Origin: Prorocentrum cordatum
Lineage: Eukaryota; Sar; Dinophyceae; Prorocentrales; Prorocentraceae
Length of the DNA: 64,000 nucleotides
Assembly: GCA_963575745.1 (NCBI GenBank)
Contig: CAUYUJ010021037.1
Span: 432,001 to 496,000, forward strand
Direction of reading: 5' to 3'
The position numbers and the translations under genes were made by a program. Under the pieces are notes generated by a model, which made no database searches, was not told the origin of the DNA, and saw only the letters and a program-made list of their open reading frames with translations. Shown in pieces: positions 8,464 through 50,240 of the stretch; position 1 is the first letter of the stretch; the number at the start of each line of letters is the position of its first letter.

Positions 8464-8523
8464 ATTACGCTACCGAGGAACCCCCGATACTTAATTTAAA
8501 TCTTATGTCAACGCCTGCTACGC

Positions 8524-10700
8524 TGTCACGCTCTCCGACCCTGGCACGCATAGACGCCGCGGTGAGAGACCACCCCCTGCGCACCCCCCCTGGTGTCGAG
8601 AAAGTGCCACGCCTGCCACGCTCTCCGACCCTGGCACGCATAGACGCCGCGGTGAGAGACCACCCCCTGCGCACCCTCTCTGGTGTCGAGAAAGTGCCAC
8701 GCCTGCCACGCTCTCCGACCCTGGCACGCATAGACGCCGCGGTGAGAGACCACCCCCTGCGCACCCCCCCTGGTGTCGAGAAAGTGCCACGCCTGCCACG
8801 CTCTCCGACCCTGGCACGCATAGACGCCGCGGTGAGAGACCACCCCCTGCGCACCCTCTCTGGTGTCGAGAAAGTGCCACGCCTGCCACGCTCTCCGACC
8901 CTGGCACGCATAGGGGCCGCGGTGAGAGACCACCCCCTACGCACCCCCCTCTGCTGTCGAGAAAGTGCCACGCCTGCCACGCTCTCCGACCCTGGCACGC
9001 ATAGACGCCGCGGTGAGAGACCACCCCTGCGCACCCTCTCTGGTGTCGAGAAAATGCCGCGCCCGCCACGCTCTCCGACCCTGGCACGCGTAAACGCCGC
9101 GGTGAGAGACCACCCCCTGCGCACCCCCCCTGGTGTCATGAACGTGCCACGCCTGCCACGCTCTCCGACCCTAGCACGCATAGACGCCGCGGTGAGAGAC
9201 CACCCCTTGCGCACCCCCTCTGGTGTCGAGAAAGTGTCACGCCTGCCACGCCCTCCGACCCTGGCACGCATAAGGGCCGCTGTGAGAGACCACCCCCGTG
9301 CGCACCCCCTCTGGTGTCGAGAAAGTGCCACGCCTGTCACGCTCTCCGACCCTGGCACGCATAGACGCCGCGGTGAGAAACCACCCCTTGCGCACCCCCC
9401 TGAGTGCCGAGAAAGTGCCACGCTGCCACGCTCTCCGACCCTGGCACGCATAGACGCCGCGGTGAGAGACCACCCCCTGCGCACCCTCTCTGGTGTCGAG
9501 AAAGTGCCACGCCTGCCACGCTCTCCGACCCTGGCACGCATAGACGCCGCGGTGAGAGACCACCCCCTGCGCACCCCTCTGGTGTCGAGAAAGTGCCACG
9601 CCTGCCACGCTCTCCGACCCTGGCACGCCGCCGCGGTGAGAGACCACCCCTGCGCACCCCCTCTGTGTCGAGAAAGTGCCACGCCTGCCACGCTCTCCGA
9701 CCCTGGCACGCATAGACGCCGCGGTGAGAGACCACCCCCTGCGCACCCCCCCTGGTGTCGAGAAAGTGCCACGCTTGCCACGCTCCCGACCCTGGCACGC
9801 ATAGACGCCGCGGTGAGAGACCACCCCTGCGCACCCTCTCTGGTGTCGAGAAAGTGCCACGCCTGCCACGCTCTCCGACCCTGGCACGCATAGACGCCGC
9901 GGTGAGAGACCACCCCTGCGCACCCTCTCTGGTGTCGAGAAAGTGCCACGCCTGCCACGCTCTCCGACCCTGGCACGCATAGACGCCGCGGTGAGAGACC
10001 ACCCCTGCGCACCCTCTCTGGTGTCGAGAAAGTGCCACGCCTGCCACGCTCTCCGACCCTGGCACGCATAGACGCCGCGGTGAGAGACCACCCCTGCGCA
10101 CCCTCTCTGGTGTCGAGAAAGTGCCACGCCTGCCACGCTCTCCGACCTTGGCACGCATAGACGCCGCGGTGAGAGACCACCCCTTGCGCACCCCCTTCTG
10201 GTGTCGAGAAAGTGCCACGCCTGCCACGCTCTCCGACCCTGGCACGCTTAGACGCCGCGGTGAGACACCACCCCCGTGCGCACCCCCTTCTGCTGTCGAG
10301 AAAGTGCCACGTCTGCCACGCTCTCCGACCCTGGCACGCATAGACGCCGCGGTGAGAGACCACCCCGTGCGCACCCCCCCTGGTGTCGAGAACGTGCCAC
10401 GCATGCCACGCTCTCCGACCCTGGCACGCATAGACGCCGCGGTGAGCGACCACCCCCTGCGCACCCTCTCTGGTGTCGAGAAAGTGCCACTCCTGCCACG
10501 CTCTCCGACCCTGGCACGCATAGACGCCGCGGTGAGAGACCACCCCCTGCGCACCCCCTCTGGTGTCGAGAAAGTGCCACGCCTGCCACGCTCTCCGACC
10601 CATGGCACGCATAGACGCCGCGGTGAGAGACCACCCCTGCGCACCCTCTCTGGTGTCGAGAAAATGCCGCGCCCGCCACGCTCTCCGACCCTGCTGTGAG
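8524..10700. repeat. Minisatellite of about 24 units of 90 bp inside the LINE-1 RT
   Basis: Tandem units start with CTCTCCGACCCTGGCACGCA at 8531, 8621, 8711, 8801 and 8891, exactly 90 bp apart at first, with 1-3 bp slips further on. The early units alternate between a GCACCCCCCCTGG and a GCACCCTCTCTGG variant, giving a 180-bp higher-order unit. Because 90 is a multiple of three, long open frames run through it on both strands (about 489 codons plus, 808 codons minus); these are repeat shadows. It lies between RT motif D (LRLKPIKC, ending near 10770) and the PLWDRFS segment. Confidence 0.9.
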
Positions 10701-21416: not shown

Positions 21417-21613
21417 ACCTCCTCCTCCTCCTCCTCCTCCTCCTTCTCCTCCCCTCCTCCTCCTCCTCCTCCTCCTCCTCCTCCTCCTCCTCCTCTTTCT
21501 CTTCCTCCCCTCCTCCTCGCTCCTCTTCCTCTCCTCCTCCTCCTCCTCCTCCTCCTCCTCCTCCCCTCCTCCTCCTCCTCCTCCTCTCCTCCTCGTCCTC
21601 CTCGTCCTCCTCG

Positions 21614-21649
<36 letters not shown>

Positions 21650-21660
21650 CCACCACCACC

Positions 21661-21736
<76 letters not shown>

Positions 21737-21779
21737 TCAGCATCAGAATCAGCATCATCAGCATCAGCATCAGCATCAG

Positions 21780-21826
<47 letters not shown>
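21417..21826. repeat. CTC and CAT trinucleotide arrays at the 5' side of LINE-2
   Basis: About 190 bp of CTC triplets, then about 220 bp of CAT with CAC and CAG interruptions. The CAT run passes directly into the spliced-leader relict. Frames reading poly-Ser, poly-His, poly-Leu or (minus strand) poly-Asp here are repeat shadows. Confidence 0.9.
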
Positions 21827-21829
<3 letters not shown>

Positions 21830-21848
21830 GTAGCCATTTTGGCTCAAG
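21827..21848 (+). other. Dinoflagellate spliced-leader relict (full length) at the 5' end of LINE-2
   Basis: Matches 21 of 22 positions of the conserved dinoflagellate spliced leader (DCCG, then TAGCCATTTTGGCTCAAG); only the third base differs (A for C). In cells this leader is trans-spliced to the 5' end of nuclear mRNAs. Here it is in genomic DNA at the exact 5' boundary between the CAT array and the LINE, with no GT splice donor after it. It is therefore a reverse-transcribed leader and not an SL RNA gene. Confidence 0.92.
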
Positions 21849-21863
21849 CCGTTTTGGCTCAAG
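21849..21863 (+). other. Second, truncated spliced-leader relict
   Basis: Reads CCGTTTTGGCTCAAG directly after the full leader. It equals the last 15 bases of the leader (CCATTTTGGCTCAAG) with one change. This is the product expected when the AG within the older leader (after CCGT) served as acceptor for a new round of trans-splicing. Confidence 0.9.
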
Positions 21864-22051
21864 GTGGCGCGATCAGGGCAGATGTCTGGTCTCATGAGGC
21901 TGGCTCTAGCCGTCGCGTCCATTCTTGGGTCAGATTCCCAATCTTCCAAGCTTTCAGTGAGGCCTTTGGGGCCACAGCTCTTTCCATATTACATCACCGA
22001 CACCCGGCCCCAGTCGCCCGATTGGGAGCCCAGCCGCGGCGGGCTCGACCA

Positions 22052-23257
22052 ATGGCAGGACGTGGAGGTGGTGCTCGTGGTGCCGCGCGCGGTGGCGGCG
22101 GCAGAGCCAGTAGCAGCCGTGGACAGCGGGGCGGCCAAGCTCCAGGCGCGGGCGGCAGCGGTGCAGCGCCCAGGGTCTGGGATTGCCCTCAGTGCGGAGC
22201 CAAGAAGAATTGGGGCTCTCGGCACGTCTGCAGGAGTTGCGGCTACGACTGGTGGGAAAGCGGTTCTGGTACGAGTTCTTGGTGGAGTGGCATGTCACAA
22301 CTGGACGCCAGAGAACGCCACGAGCTCAACCAGTTGCGGAGGAAGGTCAAAAAGTTGGAGACCAGCAGCCAAGCAGGACCAGGAGTCGATGGCGGTGGCG
22401 CTGGGGCGGCAGGCGTCGGGTCGCAGCCTGACGACAAGTCAGAACGTGTCCGCCGATTGGGCAAGCTACGAAGTGAGATCAAGAAGATCGAGGGCGTGGA
22501 CGGCGCGGAGGCCATTCTCGAATCCAAACGGCAGGAGGCGCAGCAGTTGGAGAACGAGCTGGCAGCAACCAAGCCCACATCAGTCCAGCTCAGTGAGTTG
22601 GAGCGCAAGCAGAAGAACCAGGAGGCCACCACGGCGGCCTTGGCGAGCAGGATCTCGGCGGCGGACAAGCAGCTCGCTGAACTACAGGCCCACAAGCTCG
22701 AGCTGGAGGGCAAACATGCGCAGAGTCAGGCCGGCGAGAAGGAGCTCCAGGCGCTCATCGACAACCTCCTGGCGCAACAGCTCCGCGAGCGTGAAGCACA
22801 GCAGCGGGAAGAAGGGCCGCGAGGGACGGCTGCCCCAGCGTCCCCAGGCGCCCAACTCAGCGAGGGTGAGCGAGCCACCGCTTTCCTCGCCGCTCTTAAT
22901 CAGTGCTCAGGCATGCTCGCCCCTGGCTTCGCTGAGCAATGGGACGGCCAAGTCGCAGAGTTGCGGCGTCTGGCACAGCGCGTTGCCACAGCAGGTGCCG
23001 CGGCGGAGCGCGACGGGAGCGGCGACGAGCAGGAGATCGACGAGAAGGACGTCGACGTCATCCTGGACCCCCTGGAGGAAGAGGCCACCGAGGAGGGGGC
23101 AGCAGAGGCCGTGGCGGGCGAGGTGGGCAACGGCGAGGCAGCAGGCGACGCTGCAGCCAAGGCCGCCGCAGCCGCCGCCATGCGCAAGCTTCGTGCCCAG
23201 AAGCTCCTCCAAGGCCTCCGCTCCGCGGGGATCCGCAGAAGGGGGAAGCGGGGGTAG
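22052..23257 (+). CDS. LINE-2 ORF1: zinc-finger and coiled-coil protein
   Basis: 401 residues. It probably acts as the RNA-binding chaperone of the retrotransposon particle. An Arg/Gly-rich N-terminus (1-40) is followed by VWDCPQCGAKKNWGSRHVC and CRSC, a C45-x2-C48-x11-C60-x2-C63 zinc finger resembling the RanBP2 type (Trp before the first Cys, Asn in the loop). From about residue 85 there are heptad-like segments (HELNQLRRKVKKLE; LAELQAHKLELEGKHAQSQA) that predict a coiled coil, then an acidic stretch and a basic C-terminus (GLRSAGIRRRGKRG). The ATG at 22052 is the first in this frame after the leader. ORF2 begins in the +1 frame right after the stop. LINE-3 has a matching ORF1 finger with identical Cys spacing. 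Confidence 0.8.
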   Translation: MAGRGGGARGAARGGGGRASSSRGQRGGQAPGAGGSGAAPRVWDCPQCGAKKNWGSRHVCRSCGYDWWESGSGTSSWWSGMSQLDARERHELNQLRRKVKKLETSSQAGPGVDGGGAGAAGVGSQPDDKSERVRRLGKLRSEIKKIEGVDGAEAILESKRQEAQQLENELAATKPTSVQLSELERKQKNQEATTAALASRISAADKQLAELQAHKLELEGKHAQSQAGEKELQALIDNLLAQQLREREAQQREEGPRGTAAPASPGAQLSEGERATAFLAALNQCSGMLAPGFAEQWDGQVAELRRLAQRVATAGAAAERDGSGDEQEIDEKDVDVILDPLEEEATEEGAAEAVAGEVGNGEAAGDAAAKAAAAAAMRKLRAQKLLQGLRSAGIRRRGKRG

Positions 23258-26200
23258 CCGCCCTCACTTCACCATCGTGAGCCTCAACGGCAGCGGATGG
23301 GGCCCTTTCACCACTATCCTCGGCGAGCAGCAGGACCCACAACAGCAGGCGGTGGCGGAGGCGCACCTCGGCGACGCACTGTGCATCCAGGAGCACCACC
23401 TCAACGGCTACCGCGCCGTGGAGCAGGAGCAGTGGTGTCGACAGGTTGGCTGGAGCGCCGTGCTGACCCCAGGGGTGAGCTCGGTCGGCGCAAGCCTCCA
23501 GCGCGCCGTCAGCAGCGGCACTGGCGTGGCCGTGCGCACCTCGCGTGGCATGTGCGGGCCAGGCGCTGGCGGCAGCAAGGACAGCTGCCACGCGGCCGAG
23601 GGCCGCGCGACCATCGTGCACATCAACGGCGTCGTGCCTGGAGGCTTCCTGCTGGGCTCGGTCTACCTGGACAACGACGACGTGGGCGAGCACAGCCAGA
23701 GCGTCTTGCAGCAGGTTGGAGCCACGCTGAAGTGCACTGGCAAGCCCTGGGTCCTGGCGGGGGACTGGAACGTCGAGCCTGACAGGTTCCACCTCCGCGC
23801 GGGGCACTGGCTGCGCAAGCTGGGCGGCCACGTCGTCGACACGGGCAAGGGTACCTGCCAGCACTCCCCCGTCAAGGAGCCATCTGAGCTCGATTGGTTC
23901 ATCGTCAGCGTAGATATGCTGGACCTCGTCAGCGGGTGCGAGCGCCTCAATATGACGGAGCAGGGCTACGCCAACCCGTGCAGGCCCCACATCGGGGTCA
24001 AGCTCTACTTGGCTTGTCAGGGCGACCTTGGCCAGTCATTCCGCGTCAAGGGCCCCACAGCCTTTCCCAAGCACAGGCCATATGGGCCTATGCCAGCCAA
24101 GGAGTGGAACCACGACGAGTTGCGGGACGCTATCGGAGTGGGGGAGGACATGCAGGCCATGACTGAGGTCTACCGCGCCCTGTGTGAGGGAGTGGAGAAC
24201 GAGCTCGTCTGGATCTACCAGATCCCGCCCGACGACGCCAGTTTGCACCGTGGCCGCGGGGGCCCGCCGAGCTTCAGCTTCGGCACGCAGGCCAGGGCGC
24301 GCCCCATCAAGGGGCCCAAGGCCAGCTACAAGGGCAAGAAGCTCATGCATCTGAGCGACTATTTCACGCAGCTCCTTCAGCTCGTCGGCGGAGGCTCGGA
24401 TGCCGTTTCTTCGGCAGGGCTCATCCAGTGCCAACTGGGCAACGACGAGCGGGCGGCGGAGCGGATGGAGGCCAGGGCAATCAAGCGCTACAAGCGGGTG
24501 CTCGGGCGCCGTGCCCGCGGGTGGGTCTCCAACCCCAGCAACCCCGACCACTACGCGGACGAGAACGAGTGGTTGGAAAATTGCGTGCCCTACATCTTTC
24601 GCATGCTGGGGCTGCCGACGCACATTGCGACGGGCCTGGCCCAGAACTTTGGGCGTCGCCTGCAGACGGCCAGGGAAGTATGCGAGTCTGCCTGGCGTCG
24701 CGGCGGCACAGGCAGGCAGGAGCTGGTGCGCATTCTTCAGCAGCTCGGCCTTCTCGACCACGACTGCTGGGAGGAGGAGCTGCGCAGGACGGTGGGCAGC
24801 TACCACGAGTCCAGGCGCTGGCCGGAAGAGCGGGGTGACAACAGCAGGCCCCTCCCAGGCGCGCCCATCGTCCACGGCTATACCGAGACGGAGAATGGCA
24901 TAGGCGACGTCGCTCCCCTACCACCAGTGCTTCGCAGGCTAGCCACCTGCCCAGTGGACGCGGGGGGGTGGAGTGCCATCGAGGTGGGCGAGGCAGGCGT
25001 CAGGCGCACACTGGCGCGACTGGCCAACGGCTGGCTGCCGCGCCTGCACGCCCCCAACGCGCAGCAGGACAAGGTAGAGTGGATGGACCTCTGCACGCAC
25101 TACGCCTACGGGCGCCTCAGCCAGTACGAGGGTGGCAATGGCGACGAGGGTGAGCAGGTCGGCGTCACAGAGGGCCAGTCTGACGGGGCGGGGATGGGAG
25201 CCGCATTTGCGGACGGGGACAGCGCGATCCCACCCCAGCCCCAAGTTAACTCCTTTGCGAGCCTCGCAGCGGCAGCGGAAGCCAGCAGTGCGAGGGCCAC
25301 TGGAGAGGGCGCCAGCGATGCGTCGGCGTCGGGGGCGGGAAGGGGAGCCGCATCAGCGGAGGGTATCAGCGTGATCCCACCCCCGCCCCCTCGCGCCAGC
25401 TCGGCTCGGCCGTTTGGCGAGCGAGCGGCAGCCCGCTGGGCTCGGGCAGTCGACACGTGCGGGGACAGCTGGCAGGCCTCCGAGGGCGTGCGCAACAAGT
25501 ACGCGCGCAAGGTCCGCGAGTTGGAGGACAGCGACCCCGACGCCTGGGCCATCGCTGACGACGAGCACTACTGCTACCTGCAGGGCGTCAAGCAGTTCAT
25601 GCGGTACCACGGCGGCAGGCGCGGGGGCAGCGACTGCAGCTCCGACGGCGACGTCAGCAGCAACGGCGACGGAGCAGCGCAAGCGAGCAGCAGGGCGCCC
25701 AAGCCCCCGTCCACGGTGGGCCTTCCCCTCGGCGCCCAGTGGGCAGCACGCGTGGCCCTGGCCGCCGAGTGCCCCAGCCTGCTCCCCTTGGCCGACTGGG
25801 CCGCTGAGGCCAGGGCCGAGGCGGAGGCCGATGGAGCAGCCTTCGCCGTCATTCGTGGCCAGGGCTTCAAGGAGTGGATCCGTCACTCCATGGCTGAAGG
25901 CGCAGGCGGGCTCCACGCCTATCGGCGCGGGCCCAGGGCATGGGCCCCTGACAACGAGTACAACGGAGCCCCAGCTCATGCCCCAGACCGAGTGAAGGTT
26001 GCGGCGAAGCAATGGTCAACAGAGGTCTGGCGGGTCAGGCGAGACCGCGATAGGTTTCGGCCGCAGCTCCCACGCTCTGGCGGCGAGGCCCTCCCCAGGC
26101 CCTCAGCCGATGAGCTGCGCATGGCCGCCAGGACCTTCAGGCACGGCACTGGCGTCGGCAGCGACCGCCTCAACCCGCGGAAGGCCGCGGACCTCAGCGA

Positions 26201-26433
26201 CGAGCTTCTGGAGGCAGTCGTTGACTTCGGGATGAAGTGTGAGGAGATCGGCGGCTGGCCCGACGTCATCACGGACTCGCTCGTGGTCATGCTTCCGAAG
26301 CCCCAGGGCGGGTTTCGGCCCATTGGGCTGCTGGGCTGGCTCCCACGCCTTTGGAGCCGAGTCCGTCAGCCCGTGGCGCGGCGCTGGGACTCGCAGATTG
26401 ACCCTGGCGTCGCAGGCGCCTTCTGGGGGGGGG
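23258..26433 (+). CDS. LINE-2 ORF2, first part: EEP endonuclease and RT N-terminal region
   Basis: EEP motifs: IVSLNGSGWG (Asn), CIQEHHLNG (Glu), VLAGDWNVEPD (Asp/Asn), SELDWFIVS (Asp) and CRPHIGVKL (His; the preceding Ser-Asp of SDH is replaced). A long linker of variable composition runs to about 25960. The RT domain opens with HGTGVGSDRLNPRKA and VVMLPKPQGGFRPIGLLG, ending at RRWDSQIDPGVAGAFWGG. The frame is lost at the G9 run 26425-26433, where the RT continues in the next frame. There is no ATG at the domain start. The same frame is open all the way back to 21864 (ATG at 21882), through ORF1, so translation may start upstream or by frameshift from ORF1. Confidence 0.82.
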
Positions 26434-29409
26434 CGCGGCCGCGCGGCCGAAGAGGCCGTCTGGTGGCAGGCCCTGCGCGCAGAAACCGCACACGCACGTG
26501 GAGAAGGAGCAGCAGCGGCACTCATCGACCTATGGAAGGCCTACGAGCTCGTGGACTTGGCCATAATCCAGGGCCGTGGCGTCCTGGCTGGCTACCCTCG
26601 GGGCCTGCTGGGTATGGCCCTCACCCTGTACGCGGGGGAGCGCCGCTTCATGCTTGACGGTAGCGTGTCCGAGCCCTACCTGCTGGATGCGGGACTCATC
26701 GCGGGGTGCTCGCATGCGGGTCGGCTCCTCAAGTGCGGCCTGCTGGTGCTCGCGGACGAGCATGCGCGGCTGTGGCGGGCGCTCGAGCCCAGAGTCACCC
26801 TCGCCATCATGTTCGACGACTGCTGCGTCGGCCGCCACGGACCGATGGCACAGGTCGCAGCCTACGTGGCCCAGGCGACGAAGGCGGTCATCTCACAGCT
26901 GGAGGCCCTAGGCTGCAAGGTCTCAGCAGCAAAGAGCGAGCTGCTGGCCAGCTCGCCAGAGCTGGCATCACTGGTCGCCAAGCTAATGGGAGGCATCGCC
27001 TTTCCCATCGCCGACTCGGTCAAGAACCTGGGGGTCGACTACTGCCTCGACGGCCAGGCGTTCGTGGTCCTCGAGAAGCGGCATACGAAGGCGGCATCCC
27101 AGTTGCAGAGGTTGCACGCCATCCGCTCGCAGGAGACCCCAGCAGCAGCTCGAGTGGCGAACACTGGTCTGCGGCCGGCTACTCGCTATGGGCTGAGTGT
27201 GGTGGGTTGGCCGACGTCGCGGCTCAACAAGTGGAGGAGCCAGGTCAACGCCGTCCACCATGGGCACGGCCCAAGCAAAAGCCTCAGCCTCAGTTTCCTC
27301 CTCAGCAAGCGTCTGCACTGCGACCCGCTGCGCGACCACGTGGCGCTGCCCATTGTCGCATGGGCCAAGGCGGTGCAGTTCAACTCGGACAGCAGGGACC
27401 TGAGGGCCCTGGGCAGCGCTTTCGCAGGGGCTAGGACGTTGCTGGCCAGAGGCGGGCCTCAGGCGTTGGCTGGACGCGGGCCAGCTGCTGCGTGCGTGTT
27501 AGCCTGCCACCGCCTGGGGTGGACCGCCACACTGCCAGGGCTGCTCACCAACGACAAGCAGCAGCCGCTGGACCTACGGACCCTGGGGGCCTCCACGCTC
27601 GCCAAGCACATCGCCGATGGCCACGAGAGGGCGCTGTGGCGAGCAGCGAGCAAGCACCCAGGACTGGAGCACCTGCGCGATGGAGGCGCCCTGTCCAGCA
27701 TCAGGCGCACACTGGCACGCAAGCGCATGAGCAAGCAGAAGGCCAAGCAGATGAGCTCGGCCAAGAACGCGCTGGTCGGATGCCTCTGGCCCGTGGCGCG
27801 GCGGTTCTTTAAGGAACGCCCATTGGCCTCCTCTCCTTGGTGCCCCAGGGGGTGCCCTGCGCACGGCACAGTGCGGCACCTGGCGTGGCAGTGCCCAGCC
27901 ACCGAGGTCAGCCGCGGCGAGTGGATCTCCAACGAGGAGGCGGACGAGCGGTGCCCCCCTGGCGACATCCCCTTTCGCACCATCGTCGGTATGGCCAGCA
28001 TCGAGGGAGACGAGGACCCGCTCTGGTCCCGCGCTCTTGCACCCGAGCACCGAAGGACCCTGCCACCGCCCACCGACGCCAGGGAGGCGCGGAAGGAGGG
28101 TCATGCCGACTTGGTGGGGCAGCCGCTCTCGGGCGACCTCTTCACGGACGGGAGCGTTCTGGACCCCAGCCTCGTCTCGGCGCGCGGCGGCTGGGCGGTC
28201 GTCGTCATGGGACCCGACAGCGAGGCAGTCAGCCTCTTCGGCCCGCTCCCCTGGCCGTATCCCCAAGAATCAGGGGCAGCGGAGCTGGTGGCGGCCATCG
28301 AGGGCATCCAGAGCTGCTTACCACCTGTGCGGATCTCCACTGACTGCAAGCTGCTCGTGGACGGCTTCGCGGCGGGCAAGGCGCGGTGCCTGCAGCGGCA
28401 GCGGCCTTACCGCGAGCTTTGGGTGCGGTTCTGGGCGGCCCTCGACGACGTGGGGGTCGGCAGCGCCACCATCCACAAGGTGAAAGCGCACGCCACGCTG
28501 GCGGACGTGCAGGCGGAGCGCGTCACGGCCTGGCAGCGGCGGGGCAATCACTGCGCCGATGCCCGCGCCGTGCAGGGCGCGCAGATGCATCCCAGCGACG
28601 ACGACGTGCGAGATAGGAGCCGCAGGCAGGATCGCCTCGTCAAGAAGGTCTTCTGCTGGCTGGGTTCGGCGATGCAGGACGGCGACGCCGAGCTCACGGC
28701 AGCGGACGGGCACGGGGGCCCAGGCTTGGAAGCAGTTCGGTGCGATTGGCGCGGCTGCAAGATGCGATGGCGAGCTCGCTGCAGTTTCCCCGACTGCCCG
28801 CAGCGCACGTGCGGGCGGCACGGGACGTGGCTGGACGTCGACGGCGACACGGTCTGGGCCTGCCAGCAGTGCGCGGGCAGGGGCGACGCGCTCGCGGGCT
28901 CCTGGGCCTCAGGGGCCGAGAGCAGTGGCGGATCGGTCGCTGCAGCCGCGGCGCTCATCACGGCGGGCGCGGCGCTGCTGTCCCACAGTCAGGCCAGCGA
29001 GGCACCAGCACAGGTGGAAAGAGACGAGGCGAGTGCAGGGCGAGTCGGCAGCGGCGCGCCTGGCGGCGGCCAGCGGGGTAGCCCACCGACGTCGGGGGGC
29101 CCTTCTGGGGCCGGTGGCGGGACCCCGCCGCTGCCGCCGCCGCAGCTCCCGCCGTGGTGGGGATTCGACGCCCACGGCTCCCACGACCTGTGGCGGGCTG
29201 GTAACCACCTCTTCTGCGTGAAGTGCGGCTACTGGACGCAGAGCCGCAGGATGGCGGGCTTGGCAGCGGAGTGCCCGAAGGCCCCCAAGAACGATAGGCA
29301 GAAGGCGGTGCTCAGCAGGCTGAAGCGCGGCCTGCAGCCCGCTGGGACGGGCGGCATCGGTGACCCTGAGCTGCTGCGGCGCATGCGCAGGCGCGTCGAT
29401 GGTGGCTAG
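26434..29409 (+). CDS. LINE-2 ORF2, second part: RT palm, CCHC, RNase H, zinc fingers
   Basis: Continues the RT after the G9 run: GRAAEEAVWWQALRAETA, LIDLWKAYELVD (motif A), LIAGCSHAGRLLKC (motif B), AIMFDDCCVG (motif C Asp pair) and VKNLGVDY (after motif D). CPRGCPAHGTVRHLAWQC is the C-x3-C-x7-H-x4-C motif. RNase H follows with FTDGSVLDPS (Asp), SGAAELVAAIEG (Glu), ISTDCKLLVDGF (Asp), HKVKAHATLADVQ (His) and RGNHCADARAV (Asp), so the catalytic set is complete. A Cys-rich segment (CDWRGCKMRWRARC; CPQRTC; CQQC) and a final FCVKCGYWTQSRRMAG-type finger end the protein. It degrades the RNA strand and copies the element. The domains look functional apart from the frame break. Confidence 0.88.
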   Translation, partial: RGRAAEEAVWWQALRAETAHARGEGAAAALIDLWKAYELVDLAIIQGRGVLAGYPRGLLGMALTLYAGERRFMLDGSVSEPYLLDAGLIAGCSHAGRLLKCGLLVLADEHARLWRALEPRVTLAIMFDDCCVGRHGPMAQVAAYVAQATKAVISQLEALGCKVSAAKSELLASSPELASLVAKLMGGIAFPIADSVKNLGVDYCLDGQAFVVLEKRHTKAASQLQRLHAIRSQETPAAARVANTGLRPATRYGLSVVGWPTSRLNKWRSQVNAVHHGHGPSKSLSLSFLLSKRLHCDPLRDHVALPIVAWAKAVQFNSDSRDLRALGSAFAGARTLLARGGPQALAGRGPAAACVLACHRLGWTATLPGLLTNDKQQPLDLRTLGASTLAKHIADGHERALWRAASKHPGLEHLRDGGALSSIRRTLARKRMSKQKAKQMSSAKNALVGCLWPVARRFFKERPLASSPWCPRGCPAHGTVRHLAWQCPATEVSRGEWISNEEADERCPPGDIPFRTIVGMASIEGDEDPLWSRALAPEHRRTLPPPTDAREARKEGHADLVGQPLSGDLFTDGSVLDPSLVSARGGWAVVVMGPDSEAVSLFGPLPWPYPQESGAAELVAAIEGIQSCLPPVRISTDCKLLVDGFAAGKARCLQRQRPYRELWVRFWAALDDVGVGSATIHKVKAHATLADVQAERVTAWQRRGNHCADARAVQGAQMHPSDDDVRDRSRRQDRLVKKVFCWLGSAMQDGDAELTAADGHGGPGLEAVRCDWRGCKMRWRARCSFPDCPQRTCGRHGTWLDVDGDTVWACQQCAGRGDALAGSWASGAESSGGSVAAAAALITAGAALLSHSQASEAPAQVERDEASAGRVGSGAPGGGQRGSPPTSGGPSGAGGGTPPLPPPQLPPWWGFDAHGSHDLWRAGNHLFCVKCGYWTQSRRMAGLAAECPKAPKNDRQKAVLSRLKRGLQPAGTGGIGDPELLRRMRRRVDGG

Positions 29410-30416
29410 GCTTTTTCTTGCCACGCTTGCCGCCTCGCTCTGTCTGCCATCACGCGAACAGACGTGTGGTTTGCACACGGCTGTTCGGGCTGCCTCTGCA
29501 AGGCAACCAACCCTACTTTGGTGCCTCAGGTCGCGTGAGGGTGTTGCCTTGCGGGGGGAGTCGCTGCTGCGAGGCGCGTTCCGCGCCGCTCTCCAGCAGC
29601 GCCGCCCGTCCCAGTGCTGAGGCGGAACCAAGTGCGTAGGGGTTTCCACACGCACGGGATCGGGCTCGGCTGCCAGCGGCAACGTAGCAGGTCGGCATCT
29701 GGCCAGGACCCGCTGCGGTGTTGGTGGCGAGGTGCAGCCGCTTGCACGGTGCTTAGTCGGGCGCGCTTGTGCCTTGCATGCTCGCCCTGCGGAAGCTGAA
29801 CCAGGTGCGTAGGTTCGCCCACGCACGGGATCGGGCTCTGCTGCCAGCGGCAACGTTACGTCCCTTGGACGCGGCGATGCTGCAGGCTAGGCAGCTTTGC
29901 TCGGCGCTCGTGTCCCGCTCTTGAGCTAGCTCGTGCCGTTGCACGGCTCTCGCTCGAGCGGAAGTTGGACCAGGTGCGTAGGTTTCCACGCACTGGAGCG
30001 CTCCGTTTAATGTAGTGGCTGGCGCGCTTGCCGCGACGGCCAGCGCTTCTTGCGCCCCAGCGTGCTCTGCTCTGTGCCGCCAGTCGGAGGCTGGACCGTG
30101 GTGGTAGGTTCGCACACCGCCATGGTTGCCTCCGAAGGCCACCGCATTGCAAACCTTCCCTGTCTGGCCTGGTGCCAGCGGGAGGTTTGCGGTGCTGTGG
30201 CACCTCGAGCCAGCATGCTGAGTTGCCGTGAATGCTCGATGCCCTGCCTTCCGCTTGCCTCGGCCGAGGCGGATGGCGTGGCCTCTAGTCTTCAGGCGAG
30301 GCTGCGAGTGTGCCTTGGGCACGGGTCAGGCCTTGCGTCCGCAGCGCCAGAGGGAAAGGCCATGGCTTCGGGAGGCTGTATCGAGCGGGGAGCTCCAGAC
30401 CTTCTTGGATGCGTGG
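29410..30416 (+). other. LINE-2 3' region with about 170-bp tandem repeat
   Basis: After the ORF2 stop, the block CCAGGTGCGTAGGTTTCCAC, then CGCACGGGATCGGGCTC and GCTGCCAGCGGCAACGT, occurs at about 29623-29687, 29798-29856 and, partly, 29967-30000. The period is about 170 bp. No open frame of protein character. The region ends where the CAT array starts, so the 3' end of the element is adjacent to CAT triplets. Confidence 0.7.
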
Positions 30417-30723
<307 letters not shown>

Positions 30724-30725
<2 letters not shown>

Positions 30726-33422: not shown

Positions 33423-33755
33423 CCAGCGCACCAGAGCTGACATCCGTAGATCCGACCTCGGGAAGTTCTGAAGGTTCGAGATTTCTCATGCCGTACCCTT
33501 CCGCCCATCCAGGGGTTTGCCAATTCACTGTCCAGTTCCTCCAGTGCACCTTGAAAAAAAGATTCAGGCTTGACTCAGGGTGAGGTTGGCGCACACATAC
33601 GAGAGTGGGTTTGGCAACGTAGGGGACATCGTCATATATGTGCTATCATTACATCCGTCATCGCGCTCTTCTCCTCCTTCGTTGGGCAAAGGCTCAAACA
33701 GTATCGTGTTTTCCAGGGTCCACCACTATGGAGTACCCTCAGTGCCCTATTGTTA

Positions 33756-36700
33756 ATGTCGGGCTTGGTTCGCCTGCGGCTCGCTCTACCTGAGTACCGA
33801 CCACGGAAATGGGCACGACGGCTTCTTGAAGTGCTCCCGCCCGAGTGGCACCGTGGAATTTATGACTGGAATGCACCGATTGTAATCGCGGCCTTTAACA
33901 GCATGTTGGGTTTAGATACTGGCCCCCATAGGGCCGTGGTGTATGCACTAGGATCCCATTCGGCACTCTACCTTGGCAAAGCCATCCTGAGGGCAGCCCC
34001 CATGTCTGGAGTCTTGGGCAGGGTGGTGGAGCATTTCAGGTCCTTCCTCCAGCCCCGCGTGCGCCCAGGCAATAGACCACGATACCGTGCTCTACGACGC
34101 AGTGGAAGCTCGATTTACTTCATCCCATTTTTGTGGCTACCGACTGAGTCGGCCAGCTTTCACTTCGAGGCTCTCGCGATTCGTCGGCATCGGCCGTCCG
34201 CGAACATGGCAGACGGGCAGGAGTCTGAGCAGGTAAGTATTCGGAAAGGTCAGGGTGTGCTGCAGCTCCCGCCTCGAAAGAAGAAACCTCGTTCTCGGCC
34301 TCCGCCATGGCGCCGTGCCCCTACCCGCAGGTATCCACCACCAGCGTGGACGACGGCGACACCAGCATTCGCAGACCCTACTGTGGTGACATCGACAGGC
34401 CCGTTGGCACAGTTTCCAGGCACGCTATCAGAACCTGCACCTTACTCCACGTTGTATGACCTGCAACTTCGGGAACATCACTTTTACACAGGAGAATTTG
34501 GCCCTTTGTGGATATACGAGTGGTGTCGACTAGGCCTCCTACTGGCCTTCTTAGCTGCGAAGTGGCGACCTCTTCCTCTCTGCACGTTCATGACACGTGC
34601 GGAGCAGGGAGATATTCTATTTCGTGCTGCGGAGATGGCGCCACTCTTTCTTGAGAACTTCTCGAGGTTACGCATGGCACGTTTCCATGTCGATATCCAG
34701 CTCCTTCGGTTACAGCTTCCAGCAGCAAAGCGTCCAATACTAAAACTACCTCATGAGTTTCGGGACCATCGGTTGAGGCAGGCCGTCAAGGGAGCCATCA
34801 ATGCGATGTCCAACCACATGAGCTTTGAACCCGCACGTAGATGGCATCGACATCCTACCCGTGTCCTATCTCGTGCCCGTAGAATTTGGAAAGACAAGGT
34901 GTGCGCCAGTAAGTTCTGTGCAGAGTATGTTTCTGGATCTTTACCACCGCCAGTTGAGGCAGGTGGGTTTATCACAGGCCCCCTCCACCTCCGACAACTC
35001 TCAGGACCGTGGCGCTTACCTGTCTGGGCAACTCCTCGGGTGTCATTGAAAGCTGCACGGGCTGCTCTGACTGAATGGACGGCTTCAGCGAGACTGGCCC
35101 CCAAGATTGCACGTCGAGGTTTGGATTATCTGAACGAGAAATTTTCAACATCTTCGAAATCGGACCTAACGTCAGCATTTTCAGATCCACCCGCTAGGTG
35201 GCAAGCTTTCGAGGCTGATATGCAGAATTCTGTGGAGATGGCAACTGGTGAGATTATTATTGCTGACGATAAGCTACCTGACAAGACGTGGGTTGCCGAC
35301 GGCCCAGATGTAATCAGGTGGCTTCATCAGACTGCGGCACTTGATGGTGATTGGGCGCTCCGCCTCGACCTCACACACCAGGACGCGGCCACTTGGCTGT
35401 GGACGAGGGCCCATGCTGGTCTACCTGCCTGGCTACGGTCCCAGACGATGCTGCCGCCCGTGACGAAGGCCACATGCCCACCGTATGTCTTTCCGGCGGT
35501 GAAGAGTAAATGCTTCGACGCCGACGGGACAAAGAAATGCACCAATGCTGGGCACAGCTGCATGAGGCGCATCGTGAACTCAGCGGAGGCGCCAGGCACT
35601 GCAGGTTATAAATGCGTTGGTCGTGCTGCTCGCCATCTTCTCCGTGCATCAGGTACGTCGTGCGAGGTCTTCAGCATGAATGACGCAGCGGCCGAGCTGC
35701 GGCAGATATCTGAGGAGTTAGACCCACCGTCGACGGACACGTGCTTGTGCTGTGGAGCCCTCATGACGTGCATATCGGTCGTGGTGGTGGACGCCGACCA
35801 GGCCTACGAGCAGTGCAGTGCGCAGTTCGTGGGCCGAGCATGGAAGGAAGTCTCTCGTGAAATTGTTAAGCAGCTGGGCACGGACTCAGCCTTAGTTCGA
35901 CGAGGCCGTCAATGTATCACCAAGACGTTTCGTGGTGGCACGCCACCGCAGTATTTCCGAGTTTCTGTGCATGACATTGCAAAGACGATGCTGGCATACT
36001 GCTGGCTCTCGCTAGTCACCATTGGAGGCATTGTATATGAACCCAGAGGCTTACCAATTGGTGGCGCTCTATCGGGCGTTGCATTATCCATATTTATGGC
36101 GTGGTTCGAGATGCAGGCTCAAACACATCCTGAACGATATGCACCATCTGGCTTTACCATTTCATCATCATCGGGGTCGATAGAAATACGTCAAAGAAGA
36201 TATGTCGACGACATCATAGGCATCAGCAAAGTATATTGTAGGTTATGCGTGTTCAAGTACTTGACAGAGGTTTATCACGTAAAACTATCTCCAGCATGTG
36301 TTTTGGGAGATCGTGAAAGTCCGTGTATTTGGTTAGATATGGAAGTTTGGCCTCATGGGAACACCCTCTGGATTGCCCCCAAGAACGACAACAGGATCTG
36401 GCTCCACAAGACCTCCGAGGGCCCCCGTCCGAAGACGAACATCCTCCCGTGGCCAGGCCAGCCCCCGAGGGGCTTCAACATGATCGTGGCGCTTTTCTCG
36501 GGACGTCAGATTCGGGCCCAGTTTCTGGAGTTGTCGGTTCCCGTCACGGTATCCTGGATCCTGGAGCTGGCCCTGGAGCTTTATCTCGTGGGCTACCCCT
36601 CGGCGGTGATATGTGCCGCGACCCATGCCTGTCCGTGGTCCGTTGCCATACAGAAGGCTCGAGTGATCCTTCGTCGTTGGCGTTCTTCATACGAGACGGA

Positions 36701-37562
36701 CACCACCATGGGTGGAGAAGGACGCCGTCCGTCTTGGAGCTACCGTGGAGGCGAGCGAGATGAGAGGTGGCGTTCCTACGACGGGTGGTACGACTCGCAA
36801 GGGAAACGTGATGATCGCGACAAGGATCGGGGCCGCGATCGTGATCGTCGGGACTACCGTGACGGCCGGGGGGACAGCCGTGAGCGTCGTCACAGTCCAG
36901 GACGCGGAGGAGACCGTGGAGGCCGTGGAGACCGTGAGCGTGGAGGCTCGTCTCGTGATGACCGCGACCGTGGGCGTGATGGAGGTGAACACCACTCGGA
37001 CCGTTCTCGAGATCAACGCCAGAGATCCCGCTCAAAAGATACGGCCTCTGCCCCCGACATCATCAAGATGAGGGAAAACTTGGCCAAGGCAGATCCAGAA
37101 TACCAGGCTTTCGTGAAGGACAAGAAGGACAGGGCAGAGGAACTTCGCTTGCGTAAGCAGGGAGAGTACCTGGCCCTGGCGATGAAGAGTTCATTCGGAG
37201 ACAAGATGGCGAAACTCTTGGAGGGCGACAAAGATCAGAAGGCTACACAGTCCGCTTCGAGGCCCGACATTCGTGACACGTCGCCGACGCCAATTGCAGA
37301 GGCCCCCTCGTCGGATGCCTACATGCGCCGTGCTGAGCAAGGGTGGTTGCAGTCCCTACTGGGCAAGAAGAAGACGTTGCCCAAGCGTGTGACGTGGGGT
37401 GAAGCAGCCAGCATCCTCGAGAAGGCGATGTCCAGCGACAAGGGCATCACGGGCAACGTGAACAAGTGCATCCAGGCGCATTGTCCCAGGAAGCAGGTGC
37501 CCAAGCAGAAGTCTAAGGCGGCGGCGATGGTCTTGAATATCGTGAACGGTAGCGCCCTCTGA
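33756..37562 (+). CDS. GIY-YIG-like nuclease / Penelope-type reverse transcriptase
   Basis: About 1268 residues from the first in-frame ATG (33756). The frame is open from 33555, adding a hydrophobic stretch if a TTG were used. Residues 50-155: GIY-YIG-like fold with VVYALG (Tyr 63), ALYLGKAI (71-75), GVLGRVVEHF (Arg), FEALAIRRHRPSAN (Glu 138, Asn 151). Residues 570-640: Cys-rich segment with PPYVFPAVKSKC, comparable to the Penelope LPKxHK element. RT: VVVDADQAYEQ (Asp 679), GLPIGGALS (765-773), RRYVDDIIGIS (816-819) and CIWLDMEV (Asp 861). Residues 980-1100: Arg/Asp/Ser-rich (GRDRDRRDYRDGRG). A helical, Lys-rich end follows. It copies element RNA primed at a nick made by its own nuclease. 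The frame is undamaged. Calls are by motif only. Confidence 0.8.
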   Translation: MSGLVRLRLALPEYRPRKWARRLLEVLPPEWHRGIYDWNAPIVIAAFNSMLGLDTGPHRAVVYALGSHSALYLGKAILRAAPMSGVLGRVVEHFRSFLQPRVRPGNRPRYRALRRSGSSIYFIPFLWLPTESASFHFEALAIRRHRPSANMADGQESEQVSIRKGQGVLQLPPRKKKPRSRPPPWRRAPTRRYPPPAWTTATPAFADPTVVTSTGPLAQFPGTLSEPAPYSTLYDLQLREHHFYTGEFGPLWIYEWCRLGLLLAFLAAKWRPLPLCTFMTRAEQGDILFRAAEMAPLFLENFSRLRMARFHVDIQLLRLQLPAAKRPILKLPHEFRDHRLRQAVKGAINAMSNHMSFEPARRWHRHPTRVLSRARRIWKDKVCASKFCAEYVSGSLPPPVEAGGFITGPLHLRQLSGPWRLPVWATPRVSLKAARAALTEWTASARLAPKIARRGLDYLNEKFSTSSKSDLTSAFSDPPARWQAFEADMQNSVEMATGEIIIADDKLPDKTWVADGPDVIRWLHQTAALDGDWALRLDLTHQDAATWLWTRAHAGLPAWLRSQTMLPPVTKATCPPYVFPAVKSKCFDADGTKKCTNAGHSCMRRIVNSAEAPGTAGYKCVGRAARHLLRASGTSCEVFSMNDAAAELRQISEELDPPSTDTCLCCGALMTCISVVVVDADQAYEQCSAQFVGRAWKEVSREIVKQLGTDSALVRRGRQCITKTFRGGTPPQYFRVSVHDIAKTMLAYCWLSLVTIGGIVYEPRGLPIGGALSGVALSIFMAWFEMQAQTHPERYAPSGFTISSSSGSIEIRQRRYVDDIIGISKVYCRLCVFKYLTEVYHVKLSPACVLGDRESPCIWLDMEVWPHGNTLWIAPKNDNRIWLHKTSEGPRPKTNILPWPGQPPRGFNMIVALFSGRQIRAQFLELSVPVTVSWILELALELYLVGYPSAVICAATHACPWSVAIQKARVILRRWRSSYETDTTMGGEGRRPSWSYRGGERDERWRSYDGWYDSQGKRDDRDKDRGRDRDRRDYRDGRGDSRERRHSPGRGGDRGGRGDRERGGSSRDDRDRGRDGGEHHSDRSRDQRQRSRSKDTASAPDIIKMRENLAKADPEYQAFVKDKKDRAEELRLRKQGEYLALAMKSSFGDKMAKLLEGDKDQKATQSASRPDIRDTSPTPIAEAPSSDAYMRRAEQGWLQSLLGKKKTLPKRVTWGEAASILEKAMSSDKGITGNVNKCIQAHCPRKQVPKQKSKAAAMVLNIVNGSAL

Positions 37563-42625: not shown

Positions 42626-43175
42626 GCGCTCCACCTCCTCCTCCTCCTCCTCCTCCCTCCTCCTCCCTCCTCCTCTCCCTCCTCCTCCTCCTCCTCCTCC
42701 CTCCTCCTCCTCCTCCTCCTCCTCCTCCTCCTTCCTCCTCCTCCTCCCTCCTCCTCCTCCTCCTCCTTTTCCTCCTCCTGCTCGTTCTCCTTCTTTTCCT
42801 CTTTTCTCCTCCTCCTCCTCCTCCCGCTCCTCCTCTCCTCCTCCTCCTCCTCCTCCTCCTCCTCTCCTCTTCCTCCTCTCCGTCCTCCTCGTCCTCCTCC
42901 TCCTCCTCCTCATCCTCCTTGGGCCGTCTTGGGGCCTCTTCGGCGCTCTTGGGGCTGACTTGGGCTGAAAATTGCCGAAACTTGGGCCACCACTTGCCCA
43001 GTGGCGCTGCGTTCCTCCTCATGTTCCTCCTCTTCCTCCTCTTCCTCCTCCTCCTCGTCCTTCTTCCTCCTCCTCCTTGTCCTACTTATCCTCCTCTTCC
43101 TCTTTCTCTTCCACCTCCTCCTCCTCCTGTTCCTCCTCCTCCTCCTGCTCCTCCTCCTCCTCATCATCATACTTC
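42626..43175. repeat. CTC pyrimidine arrays at the 5' side of LINE-3
   Basis: Two CTC arrays (42630-42920 and 43010-43165), the second ending CATCATCAT. They are separated by a short TTGGGGC-type block (42918-42985) related to 51531-52260. Confidence 0.9.
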
Positions 43176-43197
43176 TCCGTCGCCATTTAGGCTCAAG
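43176..43197 (+). other. Spliced-leader relict at the 5' end of LINE-3
   Basis: TCCGTCGCCATTTAGGCTCA followed by AG matches 20 of 22 positions of the dinoflagellate leader. It lies exactly between the CTC/CAT array and the LINE-3 leader sequence, as at LINE-2. Confidence 0.88.
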
Positions 43198-43352
43198 GCT
43201 ATGTTTTCGCGGGCTGGGCCCGCATTGGCACAACTGGATACCACTATCCCGCGGCAGCTTTCAATCTCGTGTTGTGAGCTCCTGCTGGAGCGACCCCACC
43301 TGACACACACGCACACACACACACATACCAGGCAGAGGGACAGACTTGCTAC

Positions 43353-47129: not shown

Positions 47130-48421
47130 CGCGCGCTACAACGAGCACGGGAGAGGGCCGTGGAAGGGGTCCTGGCCCCCATAGAGCTCCAGCACCTCAT
47201 TCGCGTCTTGCGCAGCATGCCGCCCAACAAGGCGATGGGCGTGGACAGATGGGCCCCAGAGATCTTCTTCGCTTACCGGAGGAGGCCCTCGAGCAGTACG
47301 TCCGATTGCTCTACCTCATCGAGACGCAGGCCCTTTGGCCTCCGCAGGCGCACCTCACAATAGCGGCCATGGCTCCCAGGAAGCTCGGCGGTGATCGTGT
47401 CCTAGGCGTCCTGCCCAACATAGCTCGCACCTGGAGCCGCCGCTTGAGGGCGGGGCCATGCGATTGCTGGAAAGATGGGCTCCGCAATTTTTGGCGCGCG
47501 GCCATGGAGGGCCCCCCGGCTCTTGCTGCTGCGCTGCACAGAGTCTTCCTCGATGAGTCCGCCTGTAGCATGAATTGCAGAGTGGATGCGCTGTTCCTGG
47601 ACTTGGGGAAGTTCTACGACCACGCACAGCCCGGCAAGCATATCGCGGTTGGCCTCGACGAGGGCTTCCCCGCTATCGTGCTCTTGATGGGGCCCCAACT
47701 TTTCATGCCCCCCCGTGCCCTTCGCTCGCGCAGCTGGGTGGGCGACCCGATCCAGGCTCGGCAAGGGATTGCGGCTGGCTCGCCGAGGGGCGCCACTCTG
47801 GCCAGGCTCTTCCTGCCCCCGATACTCACTCATGCACGACGCCGAGCTGAGGCGGCCACCGCGTGGACCTTCGTCGACGACGCCGTGGCGAGGGCCGAGG
47901 GCACCGCCAAGACAATGCACCGAGCCATCCTGCAAGCTGGAGTTGCCCTCAATCAGGCCTTTGACAACGCCAAGTTGCCCGTCTCGTCCAAGAGCGCCCT
48001 TCTCGCCAACAACACCAAGGTTCGTACTTCCCGGGCGGGCAGGCATCGCAGGGCTGGACTGCCGCTTTCCACAGTCACGGAGGCCGCCGACCTCGGCATC
48101 GACACCAGCGCGGGCACGCGTCGAGCGCAGGCAGCTGGTCGCTGCCTAAGCACTCTGCTCGGGGCCAGCTTCGATGGCGCAGATCCAGGAGCCCAATCCC
48201 GGCTGCAACTACTTCGCGACTGGCTTCATTTCTGGCAGGATAACCCTCACCTTCACCTGCGCACACGACGTGCGCGGGCTCTCCCCAAGCCGAAGTTGGC
48301 CAGGGTCGGCCCGCGGATCTGGTCACGCGTCGCTGGACCCACTGGAGCTGCCATCGCCGCGCTGCTCGAGGCTGGATGGGAACCCCACCAAGCGGACCTC
48401 TCGCAAAGAGTGCGTGGATAA
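47130..48421 (+). pseudogene. LINE-3 ORF2 reverse transcriptase
   Basis: RT start MPPNKAMGVDRWAPEIF lies in one frame near 47217. The rest is in the next frame: VLGVLPNIARTWSRRLR, ALFLDLGKFYDHAQPGK (motif A), GIAAGSPRGATLARL (motif B), TAWTFVDDAVARAEG (motif C Asp pair), LPVSSKSALLANN and AADLGIDTSAG. The catalytic Asp residues are present. A frame change near 47280 and a stop at 48419-48421 break it. It is the same type of RT as LINE-2. Confidence 0.78.
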
Positions 48422-48715: not shown

Positions 48716-49423
48716 GTGTGCGACCGATGTAGCTCTGGGCGAATTGAGGACTTGGTCAGCCGCGTCTGGCTTTGCGAGGCCAGCACATGTCCCGAAGTTG
48801 CGCGGTCTGCCCATCTGGCCCCGCGTGCGCTGGCCCGCCACGAGCATGACCCTGCCCTCTGGCTGAGAGGAGCCCCTCCCTTGTCCTCCACCTCCTCTTC
48901 CTTCGAGCCTTCGGGGGCGGGTGGGGAAATCGTCACCATTGGAGCCGACCCGGACAGTCTCTGGGAAGGCCACCACGGCACAGCCTCGGGACGCCTCTTC
49001 CTCTTCGGCGATGGCTCTGGAAGAGCCTTCTCGGACGATCCCAGAAGGAGGGGGTGTGGCTGGTCCGTCTTTTCGGCGCTGCCAGACGGTCCCGGCTCCT
49101 GGAAAGAGGGTCAAGGTCTATTCGGCCCCCCCGAGGGCCGTCGGCAGACAGTGCCGCGCTCGGAGCCCACGGCAGCCGCCATCGCTATCGAGCGCAACGT
49201 CGGACCCCTCACTTCTGTTACATATCACAAACCGTTGGTGAATGGCTGGCAGCAAGGCTGGGCCACACGAGCCCCTGCACCCTGGACTCGTAAGCTGAAG
49301 AACCCCGACGTTTGGGCTAGGATCCGCAGGGACTTGGAAGCTAAACCAGGTCGCAAAGTTGAGATCGATCGGGCCCTGTCCCATCTCGACGAGACTCCTG
49401 ATTTAATCACTAACCCGTTTTAA
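48716..49423 (+). pseudogene. LINE-3 ORF2 RNase H region, first part
   Basis: RNase H motifs: LFGDGSGRAFSDD (Asp), VPRSEPTAAAIAIE (Glu), VTYHKPLVNGW (the usual Asp of this motif is missing) and DRALSHLDETPDL (His). It ends at a TAA (49421-49423). In the same frame, directly after the stop, comes AGSALADARASQGAAF, the final AD motif of RNase H. The TAA is therefore a nonsense change within the domain. Confidence 0.7.
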
Positions 49424-50240
49424 GTTGCTGGCAGTGCACTGGCGGACGCCAGAGCCTCACAAGGAGCAGCTTTTTGGGACTCTCGCCGTGCTTGCCCTGC
49501 CCCCGACACCGACTCCATGGATGCCACTGCTGCCCTCGTTCGAGCCAAGTGTCGTGCTGTTATGCGTTCCCTCGGTCACGGCAAATCTCAGAGAGGGGAG
49601 CGCCACTCCACGGCCAGAGTCCCAGCCCCCTCGGCCCGCGCGTTGGCGCTCTCCCAATCTTCCCACACATTCGAGCGATGCCACCCAGAAGTGGCGTTGC
49701 GAAGTCTGTGCCCTCCTGGTTGATGATTGCAGAATCGAGGAGGTGGTCAGGACGACCTGCCCTGGGCCCCCTCCTGTCCCTGCACTCGAGACTAGAATGT
49801 TCGGGGGCGCGGTTGTGGTAGAAGCTGGCACCCGTGAGTTCCGATGCCTGGTGGCCCACGCGTCCCACCGTCTCCTGGAGATCCCGTGTGGGGCCCACGG
49901 CACTCTCCAGTTTCGCAGCCGCGCGGTGACCCCACCCCCAAGGGCCGTGAGGCCCTCGGTCGAATCCTGCGTGGCCTGCACCCCTCCCATAAGGGCCCAC
50001 CCAAAGTGGTTCCCGAAGCGGAGCACAGGAGCTCCGCCCAGAGGGCCCGTGAGAGGGCCCGAGGCGAGGGTAGGACGGAGGAGAGCGGCGGAGAGAGGCT
50101 GGAGCGCGGGGGTGAGGGGGAGGCCGCTCGCGCGCGCTGCGAGCGGCGCACGAGCGCGCGCGCGCGGCCGCGGCGTCCTCAATAACTGCGAGGACGGCCG
50201 CCCCCCCCCCCCGCGCCCCGCCCCCCCGCCGTCGGCGTAA
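49424..50240 (+). pseudogene. LINE-3 ORF2 C-terminal end and 3' region
   Basis: After the RNase H AD motif the frame drifts. In a neighbouring frame WRCEVCALLVDDCRIEEVV is followed by CPG, a Cys motif comparable to the C-terminal fingers of LINE-2. From about 49950 the sequence becomes GC-rich and low in complexity (CGCGCGCG and C runs near 50150-50230). The exact 3' end is not visible. Confidence 0.45.

Follow-up and report, generated by a model that had tools for sequence, protein, structure and literature searches.

The host spliced leader as the probable 5' end of LINE-2, a microsatellite-associated LINE of the dinoflagellate Prorocentrum cordatum

As judged from the sequence of its genome copies, the 5' end of LINE-2, a LINE of Prorocentrum cordatum, is quite probably the 22-nt spliced leader of the host, likely because a trans-spliced mRNA serves as the template of reverse transcription, in which case every newly expressed copy would have its leader renewed.

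One copy of LINE-2 lies on the plus strand of the analysed stretch of 64,000 nucleotides (the window), which is part of contig C20188 of a 4.13-Gb assembly with 21,875 contigs, to which all genome-wide counts refer. Here, a CAT/TCA array (21614..21826; the array call itself was 21614-21829) is directly followed by an outer unit at 21827..21848 (TCAGTAGCCATTTTGGCTCAAG), which agrees with the 22-nt dinoflagellate spliced leader in 21 of 22 bases (one change), and by an inner unit at 21849..21863 (CCGTTTTGGCTCAAG), which agrees with the last 15 bases of the leader in 14 of 15 (one change). The tandem is flush on both sides, with the LINE-2 body starting at 21864, and other copies carry the outer unit at the same place. 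This arrangement, a leader and then a 15-base leader end at the junction of a CAT array and a LINE, had been described in the initial annotation and was confirmed on re-reading. The inner unit is read as an older leader cut at the inner AG. The first three bases of the outer unit (TCA, 21827-21829) can equally be read as the end of the CAT array, so that in the window this unit is certain only from GTAG; the full TCCGTAG head is present in 30 of 36 LINE-2 copies (duplicates and L034 dropped).

A chance match of the leader is rejected by the shuffle controls and by the genome-wide count of its 15-mer against a reversed control. With up to three mismatches, a 21-mer matched twice in the window, whereas 100 shuffles gave no match; a 22-mer with up to five mismatches gave three plus-strand sites in the window (shuffled motifs average 0.01), two of which overlap within the tandem at 21827-21863. 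The leader 15-mer occurs exactly 23,175 times genome-wide, compared with 3 for the letter-reversed control.

The LINE-2 body extends on the plus strand from the leader joint to the 3' end (21864..30417), as bounded by the best 40 5' and the best 40 3' genome matches. It contains ORF1 (22052..23257; 401 aa), with a CxxC...CxxC motif and no Pfam match, and ORF2 in two overlapping frames. The first frame (23259..26657) holds an AP-type endonuclease and the start of the reverse transcriptase (RT) region, and the second (26236..29409) holds the RT and RNase H regions. The endonuclease match (PF03372, E 6.3e-5, 23.3 bits) is just below the cut-off of 24.5, the RNase H match (PF00075, E 2.3e-7) is above its cut-off, and the window's own LINE-2 frames gave no direct Pfam match to RVT_1. 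Both frames align in order with P0007, a metagenomic protein which matches the endonuclease PF03372, RVT_1 and RNase H; one of the three proteins found bears the name Prorocentrum cordatum. Endonuclease, RT and RNase H therefore stand in one coding region as in the LINE class, the RT by way of the P0007 alignment, and the fixed 3' end with 5' truncation or inversion expected of that class is also seen (in the 3' joints and in copies L058, L078 and L026). Searches of NCBIfam and of solved structures gave no usable match.

The 5' ends of other copies were sought with the first 400 body bases as the query, and the best 40 of 204 candidates (97-100% identity) were read. In 39 of these 40 joints an undamaged leader directly adjoins the body at the identical base; the leader of L034 is interrupted by small indels. 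One unit is present in 31 of the 40, two units in 8 (L009, which is the window's own copy, L015, L023, L025, L027, L030, L043 and L047) and three in none, and a CAT-type array lies directly 5' of the leader in 39, the exception being L026. Ten further 5' ends, reached by way of 3' matches, all carry the leader at the same joint (two units in L081, a broken one in L083). Taken over both routes, there are 50 readable 5' joints, every one of which derives from the leader; one unit is present in 39, two units in 9, and the remaining 2 are broken. Same-flank duplicates (L016 = L018 = L020, L028 = L036) are counted separately in the 40 and in the 50, and since both samples consist of the best-scored candidates, old copies are under-sampled. 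The exact pattern across the leader/body joint occurs 68 times genome-wide (reversed control 0).

These joints bear on two conditions under which the initial annotation would have failed, i.e., an unrelated conserved 5' sequence in place of the leader in other copies, or a leader that belongs to an SL gene array. The former was seen in none of the 50 joints (48 intact and 2 broken), and the latter is rejected, as in the copies read and at the 68 exact joints the leader is followed by the same LINE-2 body and not by the SL RNA intron. Non-LTR enzymes can switch templates, so the leader could also have been joined during insertion, if the reverse transcriptase, having reached the end of a LINE RNA that lacks the leader, jumped onto the SL RNA. 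Such a jump should, however, bring along intron bases of the SL RNA, of which there are none between leader and body in the 50 joints (leader-only in 48 of 50 copies), and it leaves units cut exactly at the inner AG without explanation; we consider it extremely unlikely.

For the 3' ends, the last 400 bases were the query, and from the best 40 of 253 candidates 30 were cut out as loci. All 30 pass straight into an ATC array, 29 of them after TGCGTGG or TGCGTGGG and L068 after TGCGT, and all 30 joints are at the same base or at most 3 bases away. In the window, the corresponding TCA/CAT array (30418..30725, plus strand) directly follows LINE-2, with no poly-A at the 3' end at 30417. Judged by coordinates, the 40 3' matches comprise 18 from copies that had been read by the 5' route, 1 from the inversion described below, 18 that were fetched and 3 that were left aside; of the 18 fetched 5' stretches, 10 carry the leader, 5 have no 5' end there and 3 read N (L079, L084, L086; uncounted). 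The leader is thus present in 29 of the 34 copies assessed by the 3' route, duplicates being counted apart. Two of the five without a 5' end are visibly truncated, lack the leader and start directly in an array (L058 in CAT, L078 in TCC). Simple repeats of the same type therefore flank LINE-2 on the 5' side in 39 of 40 copies, on the 3' side in 30 of 30 and at both truncated ends (one CAT, one TCC), as would be seen for a LINE that inserts into microsatellites, where simple repeats stand on both sides and truncated copies are included. The arrays at 21614..21826 and 30418..30725 are likely the 5' and 3' halves of the insertion target. An array that is a mere 3' tail of the element is disfavoured, because arrays are present on both sides and also at truncated 5' ends.

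The one copy with no array before its leader, L026 (G000:C13475 near 97,100), has its 5' part inverted: the leader is preceded by element bases 1901 to 1 and followed by the element from base 3592 onward, so that the leader stands at the inversion joint, inside LINE sequence and without an adjoining array. This suggests that the leader came with the RNA and not with the target, and a leader that is a piece of the insertion target is rejected by this joint without CAT. On the same contig, about 5 kb away, L056 is a LINE-2 3' end with a CAT flank, and the two together have the appearance of a head-to-head 5' inversion with the leader exactly at its joint. Twin priming in L1 produces a comparable type of inversion.

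The window holds a second leader-headed LINE, LINE-3, which, like the array on the 3' side of LINE-2, goes beyond the initial annotation. On the plus strand, a TCC-type array ending in a short CAT run (43013..43175) is followed by a leader with 20 of 22 bases matching (43176..43197), and the element extends from 43176 to about 50 kb in the window. It has an RT-similar region at 47231..48004 (tblastn with P0006 and P0007) and an RNase H-similar region at 49001..49681 (tblastn with P0007). Between LINE-3 and LINE-2 no DNA similarity was found at E 1e-3, and the protein similarity in the RT region is 31.8% over 88 residues. With the first 400 body bases of LINE-3 as the query, 41 matches were obtained, mostly distant or alike over the first 66 bases alone; 26 of LINE-3 type begin at or before query base 9 (the window's own excluded), and 20 of these were fetched, as relatives by their 5' ends. 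In all 20 the leader is at the same joint (L123 is rearranged) and the element sits behind a TCC-type array. There are two units in L119 and L124, and three in L120, the middle one lacking a base. The claim that the leader supplies the 5' terminus therefore holds in two LINE families without mutual DNA similarity. Just after the leader, LINE-3 (43198-43263) and its relatives (L117-L136) have a conserved inverted repeat, GGCGGGC-TGA-GCCCGC, which is possibly a 5' hairpin. When Rfam was searched at the gathering score, no family was found in 21600-22300 or 43100-43500; a 5' ribozyme known to Rfam thus appears to be absent near both LINE 5' ends, and these ends may carry an undescribed one.

The strongest argument for renewal of the leader comes from the distribution of the second units. 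A tree was built from 27 LINE-2 copies and 1,880 columns, with L018, L020 and L036 dropped beforehand, L034 scored as one-unit, and L019 and L021, which share flank words, both kept as one-unit copies. The six two-unit copies on this tree require 6 changes, of which at least 4 are forced by well-supported branches; a single origin was seen in 0% of 200 bootstrap trees, and two-unit copies as one clade are rejected (p-AU 1.1e-7). Being scattered and rejected as a clade, the second units must have arisen repeatedly and independently, which fits what was expected from the claim that the inner AG serves as the next acceptor. The copies in the tree differ pairwise by 0.3-3.2% (median 1.9%), and by these low values the family is young. 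DinoSL relicts are characterized by a leader at the 5' end and by repeated units shortened to 15 nt behind the inner AG, and LINE-2 has both features. Genome-wide, there are 1,813 exact 15-nt leader tandems (control 0; period 15 only), with neighbouring matches forming runs of three and four units. As AG bounds the unit on both sides, a slip of two bases is possible, and the 15-nt tandem might be a duplication by DNA slippage rather than a second splicing. Against this reading, which we regard as very unlikely, stand the number of exact tandems, the runs up to four, and the same arrangement at mature transcript 5' ends in many species, explained by splicing in the available text of PMC12014239.

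Mutation counts were made on 36 copies (duplicates L018, L020 and L036 and the broken L034 dropped). The 15-mers show 4 changes in 660 positions, each seen once, compared with 206 departures from the majority base over 12,800 positions of the 400-base body (32 copies, 4 of the 36 having been dropped for too many position-wise differences). This leans weakly to leader renewal, the weakness being due to the fact that, with 24 variants common to two or more copies in 400 body columns, less than 1 shared variant is expected in 15 columns; in the LINE-3 relatives, similarity in the leader does not clearly exceed that in the next 32 body bases. In L012, L013, L027 and L037 the genomic leader carries mutations. 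The repeated stacking is accordingly the stronger of the two arguments.

The initial annotation had the leader re-acquired at each round of copying. Repeated stacking supports re-acquisition as such, which may or may not take place in every round: the majority of one-unit copies (31 of 40) counts against renewal by splicing unless they were reset at the terminal AG, and plain copying fits them as well. It could therefore be that the leader is now encoded in the element and mostly copied as DNA, with transcription starting at or just before it and splicing adding units occasionally. Apart from the single unit in most copies, this would agree with the promoter motif which PMC6050394, in the text available, proposes for retroposed leaders, and with two variants of the 7-base head, each in two copies (TCCGTAA in L027 and L037, ATCGTAG in L011 and L022). 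However, splicing would still be required for the second units, with their at least four origins in 27 copies, transcription would have to begin exactly at the first base of the leader, and the same head would have to be accounted for on two LINE families without common DNA similarity. We consider an encoded leader unlikely.

If the leader is renewed by trans-splicing, read-through from neighbouring DNA would provide the transcript of a new copy. A fresh leader spliced to the inner AG (CCGTAG) would give a leader plus 15 nt, i.e., a stack, while splicing to the terminal AG (CTCAAG) would lead back to one leader, a reset which would hold most copies at one unit. The endonuclease would nick the purine strand of GAT or GGA arrays, and we propose that each copy would for this reason land behind a pyrimidine-rich stretch; the array upstream may then act as acceptor context, and reverse transcription reaching the first base of the RNA would produce a complete copy. 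On this reading, the leader would serve LINE-2 as an internal promoter or a 5' ribozyme serves other LINEs. More tentatively, as a picture that could well be right or wrong and that we do not yet favour, LINE-2 may represent a LINE lineage without a 5' end of its own, which inserts into pyrimidine microsatellites in sense orientation, owes its expression to read-through and has its terminus defined, capped and renewed in every round by the host leader (the inner AG stacking, the terminal AG resetting). Host trans-splicing would then be part of its life cycle, and such a lineage could supply the enzyme for leader-tagged retrogenes.

Leader sites and microsatellites are associated genome-wide. 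The full leader directly follows TCCTCC at 1,993 exact sites and CATCAT at 335 (controls 0). Of 27 leader sites on three contigs, 16 are directly preceded by a stretch resembling a trinucleotide array, the background being 10.7% for random stretches of the window and 7.3% for those taken at random from the same loci; these sites are the top of the list for the three contigs and hence non-random, omitting one LINE-2 copy (C2) and two later sites (C3), and in L098 and L105 the upstream stretch was measured from an inner unit. Ordinary retrogenes or decayed joints may account for the other 11. In L001, L107, L111, L112 and L115, sites which look unrelated, a short motif near ACCTCT..TCCGAGGC recurs no more than about 60 bases downstream of the leader and may be a 5' module that many LINE families have in common. 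Elsewhere in the window, an open frame of 1,335 aa (33555-37562) shows, on visual inspection, a YVDD-like RT motif, has no match in Pfam at E 0.01, and is a candidate for a different kind of retroelement or its remnant; long tandem arrays are found at 8516-10693 (units of about 90 bases) and 39910-42005 (about 89 bases).

Some LINEs, such as Kibi, Koshi and Waldo, are associated with microsatellites. Their copies lie in simple repeats, as do those of LINE-2, for which the repeats are CAT or TCC and the head is the host leader; RTE in Lepidoptera is microsatellite-associated too, according to the portion of PMC2887409 at hand. It is already known that in dinoflagellate retrogenes leader-bearing RNA is reverse-transcribed and that the AG of the old leader serves as acceptor for the new one, which leaves 15-nt relicts (Slamovits and Keeling 2008, via the accessible part of PMC3229502); the same part credits these authors with the idea that the leader, by having two AGs, promotes its own occurrence at the 5' ends of genes. 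In the text at hand, PMC12014239 counts 6,544 retrogenes with leader and relict in 37 of 43 species, PMC7245778 describes relic leaders in Polarella transcripts, and PMC2488372 describes dinoflagellate trans-splice acceptors as AGs with some choice among neighbours and no simple consensus. LINE-2 resembles DinoSL relicts in retrogenes, where leader-tagged RNA was reverse-transcribed and left 15-nt remnants. Unlike these, which are host genes, LINE-2 itself encodes an endonuclease and a reverse transcriptase, and each full copy has a leader 5' end and sits in CAT or TCC arrays.

Transcripts of LINEs or other transposable elements receive the host leader in flatworms and Hydra as well. As far as the consulted portions of these sources go, partial leaders were seen at flatworm LTR and LINE loci that were discarded, the authors suggesting integration of trans-spliced retrotransposon RNA (PMC12582326), and the leader was on about 30% of TE reads in Hydra (PMC12220107), whereas in LINE-2 it is at 50 of 50 joints with independent stacking. 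The L1Tc/ingi LINEs likewise live in hosts, the trypanosomatids, that transcribe polycistronically and add a leader by trans-splicing; they have an internal promoter (Pr77) giving unspliced transcripts and 5' ribozyme activity (PMC8190864, in excerpt), while LINE-2 has no Rfam ribozyme match and the leader as its 5' end. SymbioLINE-Dnmt of Symbiodinium is a dinoflagellate LINE that also has two ORFs but differs in that ORF1 is a DNA methyltransferase, and the available text of PMC5890265 on this element does not contain the term 'spliced leader'. In the open-licence PMC literature searched, we found neither a LINE family with a leader as its regular 5' end and independent stacking nor a LINE from a dinoflagellate that is tied to CAT or TCC arrays. 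Leader relicts, stacking in retrogenes and the two-AG idea are thus known already, and the regular leader 5' end of a LINE, with its tie to microsatellites, is what was not found in the literature searched.

A retrocopy without a promoter of its own is normally dead. If our explanation is true, a promoterless LINE copy escapes this death through the splicing of its host, an escape that is borrowed because any run-through transcript can be cut and capped by leader trans-splicing, and the leader head keeps a record of it, each added unit being a mark of splicing at the inner AG. The tie of the leader to microsatellites is genome-wide. The enzyme of dinoflagellate retroposition is unknown, with LTR elements being favoured (PMC6050394, available text). 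LINE-2, as a young family that apparently moves as leader-tagged RNA, would be a direct candidate for it.
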